DNA of 64,000 nucleotides from Synechococcales cyanobacterium GL140_1_metabinner_5_sub (GTDB taxonomy: Bacteria; Cyanobacteriota; Cyanobacteriia; Cyanobacteriales; Chamaesiphonaceae), in the NCBI GenBank assembly GCA_025359065.1, contig JANYHM010000038.1:1-64000 (forward strand), in the 5' to 3' direction. This document shows, one piece after another, positions 16,308 to 22,052 of the stretch. A model generated the notes under the pieces. That model was not told the origin of the DNA and ran no database searches. It saw nothing but the letters and a program-made list of their open reading frames with translations. The position numbers were made by a program, and so were the translations under genes. Positions within the stretch are counted from its first letter, which is position 1. Each line of letters opens with the position of its first letter.

Positions 16308-18128
16308 ATGAGTATTAGCATTTATAACACCCTCACTTCTCAAAAAGAGCCGTTCCAGCCTTTGGTGCCGCAGCAGGTGAATATGTATTGCTGTGGTGTG
16401 ACTGTGTATGACCTGTGCCATGTGGGTCATGGTCGTTCTTACGTGGTTTGGGATACCGTGCGTCGCTATTTAGAGTGGCGGGGCTACAGCGTTAAGTATA
16501 TTCAAAACTTTACAGACATTGATGACAAAATTTTAAATCGTGCCCGTGAGCAAGATTCTTCGATGGAAGCTGTTTCGAGTAAATACATTGAGACTTATTT
16601 AGCTGATTTGGCGCGCTTAAACGTTAAGCCTGCTACCAGTTACCCCCGCGCGACCGAGCATATTAAGCAAATTATTGATCTGATTAGGGATTTAGAAACC
16701 AAGGGCTTGGCCTATGCCGCCGCTGGAGACGTATATTATCGAGTCACCAAATTTCCGGGCTACGGCAAACTTTCTGGTCGCAAGCTAGAAGATATGCTGG
16801 CAGGAGCCAGTGGTCGGGTGGAAGATTCAGCCGAGCAGCAAAAAGAAAATTCGGGTGACTTTGCGCTGTGGAAGAGTGCCAAAGAGGGTGAACCTTTTTG
16901 GGATTCCCCTTGGGGTAAAGGGCGGCCAGGGTGGCACATTGAATGCTCGGCCATGATCGATGCGGCTTTTGATGGTGAAATTGATATTCACTGTGGCGGT
17001 AGCGATTTGATTTTTCCTCACCATGAAAACGAAATTGCCCAGTCCGAAGGTGCTCATGATCACCCTTTGGCTAAGTATTGGATGCACAATGGCATGGTGG
17101 TAGTGAATGGAGTCAAGATGTCCAAGTCTTTAGGCAACTTCACGACTATTCAAGATCTTTTGGATCGATCGCCTAACCCAGTAGACCCGATGGTGATACG
17201 GCTGTTTATTCTCACCGCTCAGTATCGTAAGCCCCTGGATTTTACTAAAACCGCACTGGCAAGCAATGCTACCAGTTGGCAAACCTTGAAAACCGGTCTG
17301 CTATTCGGTTCCCAATTTGGTGAGAAGCTAGGTTGGAATTTGAATGCTGAAGTGCCAGCGGCCCCTGTTTTACCTCTAGTTAGCAAGAATCCTCTAGAAG
17401 ATTTGCTGCCGATCGCCCCCTTTGTCACTCTGCCCGACAATGCCCGCAAATTTAGCCTAGAATATCGGGGATTTATTGTGCTGGCCGTGATTCTGTTTTT
17501 CACCCAGTTTCCTATTAAGTTTTTGGCCAGCTTTGTTGCTGATTTTAATACAGTGCCGGTACTACCAGAATTTTTTAAGGTAGTTGGTATGGCGGTATTC
17601 GCCCGCACCATTTTGTTCAAAGCTCCTCGGGAAAGATTTTTTGCCATATTGCGGGGACTGTTGGCGGCGATCTTTAAGGATCGATCGTCTTCAAAACCCG
17701 CTCCTCAGCCGGCAGTTACTGCTGATGCACAAAGCACCAGCTTCCAAAAGTTCTGTATGGCGGTAGATGAAGACTTCAACTTTGCTGGCGGTTTGGCTGT
17801 GCTGTTTGAATTGGCCAAGGGCTTGGGCAAACAGGCAAATAACCTGAATCATGGTGCTGAGCTGACGGTGGAATCTGGGGTGTTATTTCAACAGTGGCAA
17901 GAACTCTCTGTCTTGGCGAATGTGCTGGGATTAGAGGTAAAGACTGGCGAATCGATCGAGCAATCTCCAGATCAATCTGACGATGAAATTGATGCTTTGG
18001 TAGCCCAGCGCAATAAAGCTCGTCAGGATAAGAATTTTGCGGAGGCCGATCGGATTCGCAAAGAGTTAGAAGCTAAGGGTATTGAGCTGATCGACAAAAA
18101 AGGCACTACTACTTGGCGCTATCACTAG
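16308..18128 (+). CDS. cysS: Cysteinyl-tRNA synthetase with inserted CAAD-like membrane domain
   Basis: A 606-residue class I synthetase; CysRS is normally about 460-480 residues. The catalytic core has the zinc-binding CCGVTVYD segment, the HIGH variant HVGHGRS, HIECSAM, FPHHENEIAQSE and KMSKSLGN. The DALR-type helical region starts normally (LTAQYRKPLDF) and ends normally (AVDEDFNFAGGLAVLFELAK), but residues about 335-478 are an extra block. That block contains EYRGFIVLAVILFFTQF, a NTVPVLPEFFKVVGMAVF stretch and RTILFKAPRERFF, matching the CAAD/CURT1 pattern of two membrane helices joined by a Pro-containing turn. Such domains tether some cyanobacterial synthetases to thylakoids. A Pro/Ala/Ser linker closes the insertion. 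Confidence 0.95.
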   Translation: MSISIYNTLTSQKEPFQPLVPQQVNMYCCGVTVYDLCHVGHGRSYVVWDTVRRYLEWRGYSVKYIQNFTDIDDKILNRAREQDSSMEAVSSKYIETYLADLARLNVKPATSYPRATEHIKQIIDLIRDLETKGLAYAAAGDVYYRVTKFPGYGKLSGRKLEDMLAGASGRVEDSAEQQKENSGDFALWKSAKEGEPFWDSPWGKGRPGWHIECSAMIDAAFDGEIDIHCGGSDLIFPHHENEIAQSEGAHDHPLAKYWMHNGMVVVNGVKMSKSLGNFTTIQDLLDRSPNPVDPMVIRLFILTAQYRKPLDFTKTALASNATSWQTLKTGLLFGSQFGEKLGWNLNAEVPAAPVLPLVSKNPLEDLLPIAPFVTLPDNARKFSLEYRGFIVLAVILFFTQFPIKFLASFVADFNTVPVLPEFFKVVGMAVFARTILFKAPRERFFAILRGLLAAIFKDRSSSKPAPQPAVTADAQSTSFQKFCMAVDEDFNFAGGLAVLFELAKGLGKQANNLNHGAELTVESGVLFQQWQELSVLANVLGLEVKTGESIEQSPDQSDDEIDALVAQRNKARQDKNFAEADRIRKELEAKGIELIDKKGTTTWRYH

Positions 18129-19592: not shown

Positions 19593-20798
19593 ATGAAACG
19601 ATTATTGTGGTCGGTAAGCCTAGCTTGCTTTTTGCCCATAGTTGCAGAAATGCCCAGTCAGGCGGCAGGCAATTTTGATGTAGTTGCCAATCCATCCACT
19701 AATCTGGCTGACAGCAAGGCAAATGGTTCTCTAGACAGCACTGCTAACTTGTCTGATCCTTTTGCCAGTGCAGAAAGCTTTGCTCCTGCCCAAAAAGTAG
19801 CCGCAGCAGATCTTTTTGGTACTGTTAGTCAACCAGTAGCGCCGTTAGAGTCAGTAGCACCTTCAAATAACCTTGAAAGCCCTTTTGTTACTACTAAGCT
19901 AGCAGGCAAGCCAAGCAAGAAAAGAATTAAACAGTTACCTGCCCTTAAAGCTGCTCCATCTGGCACTCAACTGCAACCAGTCAAAGCCGAAAACACTAAC
20001 CTGTTGTCTCAAAGTTCTCAAACTACTACAGATTTAGATAGACAGCTTGGAGAACTAAACAGTCAGAAGTTTCCCACTGCGGCACCTGGTTCTCAAGGCT
20101 TTGGTTTGTCTCCAGCAATGAGCATCAATAACCCAGTCGGCTTCGGTGCTGATGGTGGTGTGGGCTTTTTGTCGGGCAGCTATCAATCTAGAACTCGTGG
20201 CACCAACACCTCCGATGGAGAGTTAGGAGTAGGCTTAGGCTTATTTGATGCCACCGATGCGTTGGGTTTAGAGCTTTCTTACACCCTAGAAAGCTTTGGT
20301 TCTAGCAGAGGATTTGGCAGTGGTGGATTTAACGCTAAGTTACATAAGCGCTTCGGTGATAGCGGTATAGCCTTGGGCTGGAACCGTTTTGCTAGCGTCA
20401 ACTTGGGCAATACTGGCGTAGTTTCTGACGTTCCTAACAACTCTTACTATGCTGTTGCGACTCAGGTTATTCGCACCACCGAAGAAGTGGATAGCTTTTT
20501 GAGCAGAATTTCTCTTTCTGCCGGTGTTGGCGGTGGCCAGTTCTTACCATATTCCACTACCAGTACCAATCTAAATGCTGGTGGTGTAAACGCTTTTGGT
20601 TCGGCTGCGTTTCGTTTGGCTAAGCCAGTGAGCGCGATTGTAGAGTGGACTGGCCAAGATCTAGCTGCTGGTCTTTCAATCACTCCTTTCGGCGATGCGT
20701 TTCCACTGGTTCTTACCCCGGCTTTCCGTGATATCTCGGGTATTACTGGCCAAAGCGCAAGGTTTGTATTAGGCGTAGGAACAGCCTTTAAGTTCTAG
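19593..20798 (+). CDS. Secreted protein, probable outer-membrane beta-barrel
   Basis: I do not recognise the family. The 401-residue protein begins with a signal peptide (MKRLLWSVSLACFLPIVAEM, cleavage probably near SQAAG). Residues about 25-165 are low-complexity, rich in Ala, Ser, Asn and Pro. From about 180 to the end there are alternating hydrophobic strands with Gly and aromatic residues (GADGGVGFLSGSYQSR, LGLFDATDALGLELSYTLES, ARFVLGVGTAFKF), and the last residue is Phe, the usual end of a BamA-inserted barrel. It heads a three-gene operon of exported proteins, with 36- and 33-base gaps. The function is unknown; a cell-surface role is likely. Confidence 0.7.
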   Translation: MKRLLWSVSLACFLPIVAEMPSQAAGNFDVVANPSTNLADSKANGSLDSTANLSDPFASAESFAPAQKVAAADLFGTVSQPVAPLESVAPSNNLESPFVTTKLAGKPSKKRIKQLPALKAAPSGTQLQPVKAENTNLLSQSSQTTTDLDRQLGELNSQKFPTAAPGSQGFGLSPAMSINNPVGFGADGGVGFLSGSYQSRTRGTNTSDGELGVGLGLFDATDALGLELSYTLESFGSSRGFGSGGFNAKLHKRFGDSGIALGWNRFASVNLGNTGVVSDVPNNSYYAVATQVIRTTEEVDSFLSRISLSAGVGGGQFLPYSTTSTNLNAGGVNAFGSAAFRLAKPVSAIVEWTGQDLAAGLSITPFGDAFPLVLTPAFRDISGITGQSARFVLGVGTAFKF

Positions 20799-20834
20799 GT
20801 TGATCAAGAAGTAAAAAATTGCAGGAAAATAATT

Positions 20835-21332
20835 ATGAAATTACGTGATAGCTTGGTCGCTGCTGTTGTTCTCGCTACAGCCTGCTTAGCTGCTCCAGCT
20901 TATGCTCAAAGCAATAACTCTGGCATTACTGGTACAAATAACTCTGGCATTTCGGGGTTCAACAACAACAACAGTAGCATTCCTGGACTAGGTTTTCCTG
21001 GGGGAGCTGGCAGCGCTGGATTTAACTCCAGTACTCTTAGTCAAGCGCAGTCTTTACAGCAACAGTTGGCTGCGGCTCAAAACGCCTTGAATTCTTTTAC
21101 CCCACCTGCAGCACCAGGACCTTCTGGCCCCAGGTATTTTGCTCGTGCTAGTCAAGACTGTGGCTGTGCTAAACCAGCCGGTGACGGTGGAGCACAAGAG
21201 CGTGCTCAATTGGAAGCAAATTTAGCAAAGGCGCAGGCTGATGCCGCTGCTTTCTTGGAATCAGTGAAGAATCCCGGCTCTGATAAATTGGGTGCTGCCG
21301 TAAATGGCGCTCAAGTCGGCCGTACTTGGTAG
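20835..21332 (+). CDS. Secreted Gly/Asn-rich protein with CxC motif
   Basis: A 165-residue exported protein with a clear signal peptide ending APAYAQS. The mature N-terminus has two copies of NNSGI-(T/S)-G plus an Asn run (GFNNNNSSIPG), then a Gln/Ala-rich helical segment (AQSLQQQLAAAQNALNSF), a QDCGCAKPAG site and another Ala-rich helix (AQLEANLAKAQADAAAFLES). I recognise no known family. AGGAAA lies ahead of the ATG. Middle gene of the secreted operon; the CGC motif is echoed by CSC in the next gene. Confidence 0.7.
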   Translation: MKLRDSLVAAVVLATACLAAPAYAQSNNSGITGTNNSGISGFNNNNSSIPGLGFPGGAGSAGFNSSTLSQAQSLQQQLAAAQNALNSFTPPAAPGPSGPRYFARASQDCGCAKPAGDGGAQERAQLEANLAKAQADAAAFLESVKNPGSDKLGAAVNGAQVGRTW

Positions 21333-21365
21333 TATCACTCTCTAAACCCTGAAAAAATTAAAACA

Positions 21366-22052
21366 ATGGCAAACAAATTTAAATCTATTTTGGGCGCTGG
21401 TTTAGCCAGTGCTGCTCTGCTAGGTTTGGCTGCCCCAGCAGCCTTCGCTGCTGACGAGTTCGATGGCAATGCAATTACCTTTGACACTGACACCGCGATC
21501 GACTTTGAGTTCTTAGAATCTCATGGATCTTTTTTGGCAACCTTCGGTGTAATGGACTTAAACAGCGGCGAAAAAACTCCTCTGATTAAGGAAGACAAGC
21601 CTTCTGACAGTAGCGAGCGTGCTGTCAACAAGGCAACCGACTTTTTGGGCACTCCTGGCAATGCTGTTAGTCAGCCCAAAAACACCTTTACCTTTAAGGC
21701 CAATACTCCTTACACTCTCTATTTAGAGTCCAGAACTGGTACTGGTAGGGTAGCTTCTTTGGTGTATTCCAACAATCTAAGAAACCCTAACAGCCGCCAG
21801 CAAGCCAAGTTTGATAAAGGCTTTGAAGGTCTTGCCTCTCAAGGAGTCAAGCTCAATTGGGATGACCAAGCTATCGGTAAGCAGGTTACTGGAGCCGAAA
21901 GAAATGATGACGACTTCAATGACTTTGTGGTTATTGCCGGTGGTACTAATGGCTGTAGCTGTGCGATCGCGCCTACTGCACCAGTTACACCAGATGCGCC
22001 TCAAGCTCCTGAGCCACGTAGACCCAGAACTAAACCTCGCGGTCGCGGCTAA
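21366..22052 (+). CDS. Secreted DUF4114-like protein with CxC motif
   Basis: A 228-residue exported protein with the signal peptide MANKFKSILGAGLASAALLG and a cleavage site near AFAAD. The body looks like a beta-sandwich and ends in the acidic motif NDDDFNDFVVIAGG, which resembles the calcium-site-like DYNDLVV element of DUF4114 domains found in cyanobacterial surface proteins. A GCSCAIAP segment follows, then a Pro-rich tail (QAPEPRRPRTKPRGRG) with strong positive charge. This basic tail could contact polyanionic cell-wall or envelope components. It is the last gene of the operon, followed 14 bases on by a strong terminator. Confidence 0.65.
   Translation: MANKFKSILGAGLASAALLGLAAPAAFAADEFDGNAITFDTDTAIDFEFLESHGSFLATFGVMDLNSGEKTPLIKEDKPSDSSERAVNKATDFLGTPGNAVSQPKNTFTFKANTPYTLYLESRTGTGRVASLVYSNNLRNPNSRQQAKFDKGFEGLASQGVKLNWDDQAIGKQVTGAERNDDDFNDFVVIAGGTNGCSCAIAPTAPVTPDAPQAPEPRRPRTKPRGRG

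Follow-up and report, generated by a model that had tools for sequence, protein, structure and literature searches.

A divergent CAAD domain inserted in the cysteinyl-tRNA synthetase of a Chamaesiphonaceae cyanobacterium

Valyl-tRNA synthetase (ValRS) is brought to membranes by its CAAD domain, in E. coli as well, and the CAAD-bearing leucyl enzyme (LeuRS-CAAD) of Lyngbya localises to thylakoids (PMC4893482). The points at which CAAD is inserted into synthetases face away from the tRNA; the route by which the domain entered most of these enzymes was left open, acquisition from another synthetase being one possibility (PMC4893482). A cysteinyl-tRNA synthetase with CAAD (CysRS-CAAD) has already been reported in a single species, which has LeuRS-CAAD as well, and ArgRS-CAAD and MetRS-CAAD are likewise on record (PMC4893482, 2016).

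Here we describe a CAAD domain inside the CysRS of Synechococcales cyanobacterium GL140_1_metabinner_5_sub (Chamaesiphonaceae), encoded in the 64,000 nucleotides of contig JANYHM010000038.1 that were analysed (hereafter the window). The initial annotation had put CysRS forward as an additional host of CAAD, a view already overtaken by the 2016 listing; the Chamaesiphonaceae lineage of the window adds a second lineage with CysRS-CAAD, and Chamaesiphon is absent by name from the main text of that paper (PMC4893482). As in the species reported there, the domain lies on the C-terminal side of the CysRS catalytic part. ValRS-CAAD of Anabaena PCC 7120 and LeuRS-CAAD of Lyngbya PCC 8106 are also class I monomeric synthetases with an internal CAAD; the window protein differs from them in its host enzyme and in a second hydrophobic segment that is 4 residues shorter. 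Membrane binding was shown experimentally for both (PMC4893482) and is predicted for the window CysRS.

The cysS gene and its insert

The host gene, cysS (16308..18128; this and all features below are on the + strand unless stated otherwise), is the sole cysS of the genome and encodes a CysRS of 606 residues with an internal CAAD; the open reading frame scores 531.5 bits against TIGR00435. The class I catalytic domain (tRNA-synt_1e, PF01406, E=8e-130) spans residues 16-319 (16353..17264). Its HIGH-type motif (HVGHG) and KMSKS are both intact, and all positions at which the relatives do not vary are retained (C29, H38, C213, H238, E242 and KMSKS). CysRS is a monomeric enzyme. The insert follows the catalytic residues and lies directly ahead of the Pfam DALR_2 domain, whose first residue is 481 (residues 481-542; 17748..17933); the Pfam CysS_C match, the C-terminal anticodon-binding domain, covers residues 558-604 (17979..18119).

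Alignment with insert-free relatives placed the inserted segment, composed of linker, CAAD and linker, at residues 345-478 (17340..17741), a length of about 134 residues. Its edges fall after EKLGW (residue 344) and before FQKFCMAVDEDFN (from about residue 479). The start of 17310 given in the initial annotation is about 10 residues too early, because GSQFGEKLGW is common to CysRS that have no insert. The insert is absent from 24 of the 27 aligned CysRS of the same order; the three that carry it come from the sister species and from two members of another genus. In an AlphaFold model of the whole enzyme, the insertion site lies between helices 314-337 and 477-486, on the N-terminal border of the helical anticodon-binding half; the core is modelled confidently and most of the insert has a pLDDT below 50. 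Direct repeats flanking the insert, which would be a sign of a mobile element, were sought, and the one 11-nt pair found does not bracket it.

Sequence comparison identifies the insert as a divergent member of the CAAD family and a homologue of CURT1, the thylakoid curvature protein. Its CAAD core, taken from the Pfam PF14159 match, comprises residues 385-455 (17460..17672). The insert has the CAAD pattern of two hydrophobic helices, a P...G loop and a subsequent R.....R. Both hydrophobic segments noted at the outset were found: a putative transmembrane segment FIVLAVILFFTQFPIKFLA at residues 389-407 (17472..17528; mean KD 2.17) and a second segment VLPEFFKVVGMAVFARTIL at residues 418-436 (17559..17615; mean KD 1.48). 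The latter is shortened and moderately hydrophobic; its stretch from the conserved G to the conserved R has four residues fewer than that of CURT1. The one insert-free relative compared has no hydrophobic segment above KD 1.2. Helices are predicted in the expected order at residues 379-398, 404-412, 419-438 and 441-456, at the low confidence that the AlphaFold model has in the insert.

Divergent from cysS is a gene for a CobW-type metal GTPase (PF02492; 15041-16219, - strand) with a long histidine/aspartate-rich stretch, possibly a metal chaperone. Three adjacent open reading frames (401, 165 and 228 aa; 19593-22052, + strand) have no Pfam match.

Distribution and origin of the CysRS CAAD

Two samples were searched, an even one of 391 genomes across the order and one of 386 genomes from the phylum. 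Full-length matches to a profile of insert-bearing CysRS, which could miss a CysRS whose CAAD is too diverged, occurred in 4 of the 391 genomes and in two genera: the window genome (G000) and its sister species (G001) in genus g1, and G031 and G057 in genus g23. The phylum sample gave full-length matches only in two of these same four genomes. G031 and G057 have LeuRS-CAAD and CysRS-CAAD together, a pair that matches the species in PMC4893482, and are probably Lyngbya. Their CysRS carries CAAD in the same loop as the window enzyme. The window lineage differs in having no LeuRS-CAAD, in a far more diverged CAAD (24 versus 57 Pfam bits) and in a CysRS catalytic core that groups apart.

The only CAAD matches in the window genome are CysRS and one CURT1; no CAAD was detected in its IleRS (967 aa), ValRS (925 aa) or LeuRS (871 aa). 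A CAAD remnant was considered for the IleRS and rejected, as there is no trace at the corresponding site. The family of the window genome consists of two genera, the other of which contains Chamaesiphon. In that sister genus the CAAD bearer is a class I enzyme, 1134-1154 residues long, that clusters with the IleRS of the window genome; the CAAD-bearing synthetase is CysRS in the window lineage and IleRS in the sister genus. A Chamaesiphon genome also has two neighbouring CURT1-like genes (L152 and L163; G009:C269:8201-9919), and such extra diverged CURT1 copies are absent from the window genome. Elsewhere, a CAAD-bearing protein of 718 residues with an ArgRS-like N-terminus (L201, G038:C236) is a putative further host.

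The CysRS sequences themselves do not group by the presence of the insert. A single CysRS-CAAD clade was rejected by the N-terminal, catalytic part of CysRS (AU p=0.0006) and by the whole CysRS core (AU p=0.004, or p=0.04 without Chamaesiphon), so that a single origin, whether through descent or through transfer of the complete gene, is rejected for CysRS-CAAD. In the core tree g1 joins Chamaesiphon (97/88), both on long branches. The C-terminal part of CysRS is uninformative (p=0.54) and so leaves room for a transfer of just CAAD and the C-terminal segment.

The CAAD domains group differently. The window insert has an IAPF motif at residues 369-372 (17412..17423), an APF/QPF mark common to certain IleRS and MetRS CAADs. 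Within a set of 80 CAADs, six have A/QPF in the N-helix (four CysRS, one MetRS and one IleRS), and all of these except the MetRS are four residues short in the second segment, between its conserved G and R, a gap seen in no other row; neither mark occurs in any CURT1 of the 80-row set. A search for this subclass in the 391 genomes yielded 14 CAADs in synthetases, scoring 86-140 bits: 4 CysRS, 3 MetRS-type (f21), 6 IleRS-type (f18) and 1 IleRS-type (f12). For newly found members the type of host was assigned from length, flanking sequence and kinship. The next match was a CURT1-sized protein at 80 bits, and the others were at or below 80 bits among the matches listed. The f18/f12 IleRS-type proteins (L236-L238 and L241-L244; G027, G139, G124, G108, G092, G075 and G120) belong to the same CAAD subclass, with QPF in the N-helix and the four residues missing; they differ from the window protein in their IleRS host, and the f18 CAADs have three additional residues in the first hydrophobic segment. 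The f21 MetRS (L190, L235, L239, L240 and L249; G030, G077, G094 and G126), among which L190 alone is confirmed as MetRS by NCBIfam, have an internal QPF/RPF-type CAAD without the deletion. The single CURT1 of the window genome (G000:C84:30210-30461) is a homologous domain with two hydrophobic helices that stands alone, scores 111 Pfam bits and lacks both the QPF motif and the deletion.

In the CAAD tree the CysRS and subclass IleRS domains were united (94/93, not starred), followed by the MetRS domains (89/84); the four CysRS CAADs came together at 98/90 without the IleRS rows and weakly (85/2) with them. The tree is suggestive rather than proof, because it is built on about 100 columns with long branches and the alternatives were not rejected: origin of the window CAAD from the genome's own curt1 (p=0.25) and from the IleRS CAAD of the sister genus (p=0.30) were neither rejected nor favoured. 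The common A/QPF motif and 4-residue deletion, despite CysRS cores that do not group, suggest on sequence grounds that CAAD has passed between synthetases. We give roughly even odds to the fuller scenario, in which a CAAD lineage with A/QPF and the deletion moved among synthetases (IleRS, CysRS and, with the four residues retained, MetRS) as well as across cyanobacterial families, and came to occupy the same loop of CysRS in two lineages.

The window lineage may instead have captured its CysRS CAAD independently from its own curt1, the likeness to the other CysRS CAAD being convergence in the same loop. Such a capture agrees with the failure of the two catalytic cores to form a single clade, with the unrejected grouping of the window CAAD with its own CURT1 and with the preference of the 2016 authors for repeated curt1 capture (PMC4893482), but it has to contend with the two marks held in common by the CysRS and f18/f12 IleRS CAADs and with the separation in score of the 14 subclass members from the other matches listed; we consider it possible, though on the doubtful side.

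Predicted tethering to the thylakoid membrane

By analogy with ValRS-CAAD and LeuRS-CAAD (PMC4893482), anchoring of the window CysRS at thylakoids is likely. CAAD sits in a loop that borders the helical anticodon-binding half. Its two hydrophobic helices would make a hairpin, dipping into the membrane and emerging on the side of entry; the two halves of CysRS would still fold against each other in the cytoplasm, with the hairpin tethering the enzyme to the thylakoid membrane. An internal insert could act as a tether without splitting the CysRS fold, since a chain that passes through the membrane twice ends on the side on which it started. We infer in this way the hairpin topology and membrane location of the enzyme, as well as its catalytic competence. 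A CAAD-bearing synthetase (aaRS-C) is characterised by the lack of a paralogue of the enzyme, by restriction to cyanobacteria and by location in thylakoid membranes. One cysS above the family cut-off is present in the window genome, so that the CAAD form of the enzyme is presumably active; the window genome is cyanobacterial, its sister species G001 being recorded as a cyanobacterial metagenome-assembled genome (MAG) and the other genus of the family containing Chamaesiphon. The window CysRS is most likely a thylakoid-bound, active enzyme, as judged from its described counterparts. Since it is the sole CysRS of the cell, cysteine charging would take place at the membrane. We have considerable confidence in the reading as a whole, that the insert is a divergent CAAD whose hairpin would tether CysRS to the thylakoid membrane, where cysteine would be charged.

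Alternatively, the domain might serve chiefly to recruit a partner, for instance a thylakoid protein or ATP synthase, and attachment to the membrane would then be a by-product. ATP synthase subunits do co-purify with the Anabaena ValRS CAAD (PMC4893482); the window CAAD is far diverged from that domain, and anchoring and partner binding are not mutually exclusive. We regard a mainly recruiting role as improbable and retain membrane tethering as the preferred function.

Identity, conservation and significance of the insert

Another reading takes the insert for a two-helix hairpin or hydrophobic linker of unrelated origin, similar to CAAD in composition only. The proposed check against PF14159 gave a match, with E=5e-5 and 23.5 bits for the insert alone and E=5e-4 and 20.2 bits for the whole CysRS, at scores below the curated cut-off of 30.7 bits; CAAD was the single Pfam family to match the insert. 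Against a CAAD/CURT1 profile built without any CysRS sequence, the window CysRS reached 38.8 bits, with a maximum of 15.4 bits over 1000 full and 1000 local shuffles, and the other open reading frames of the window scored at most 4.1 bits, leaving CysRS as its only strong match. The insert scored just 19.4 bits against CURT1 proteins alone; its HHalign probability was 97% against CURT1 together with other synthetase CAADs and 76% against CURT1 alone. The Pfam E-value, the score against the CysRS-free profile and the HHalign probability of 97% support the initial proposal of a CAAD/CURT1-like domain inside CysRS. An unrelated hairpin would fit the Pfam score below the cut-off and the low model confidence in the insert; it is very unlikely in view of the composition-preserving shuffles, the retention of the Y, P, G, R and R columns that are invariant across six aligned CAADs, and the homologous insert in the same loop of the g23 CysRS (G031 and G057), which passes the Pfam CAAD cut-off at 57 bits.

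The sister species (G001, JAAFHZ010000037.1), a separately assembled MAG, carries the same insert, and the frame is open in both genomes. Amino-acid identity of the insert is 83% over 134 aligned codons. For the CAAD core it is 0.895, with an NG86 dN of 0.05 and dS of 0.83 (dN/dS about 0.06); by YN00 the constraint is weaker (dN/dS 0.28-0.29 for the insert and the core). The insert is under purifying selection between the two species by NG86, the YN00 ratio being higher. That the insert is an assembly error, as the initial annotation had allowed, or a decaying, non-functional insertion is hardly credible even for a draft genome in 121 contigs, because the sister species has it too, with synonymous changes far in excess of non-synonymous ones by NG86, in a single-copy gene of essential function.

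By analogy with the described enzymes, the window lineage would be a second lineage of membrane-anchored CysRS, one in which CysRS is the only CAAD-bearing synthetase detected in the cell. The exchange of CAAD host between CysRS in this lineage and IleRS in the sister genus suggests that having any anchored synthetase matters more than which one it is. The A/QPF motif and the 4-residue deletion are testable marks for the question raised in 2016 of CAAD acquisition between synthetases; if such passage is true, anchors would have been handed from synthetase to synthetase and not re-made from curt1 each time.
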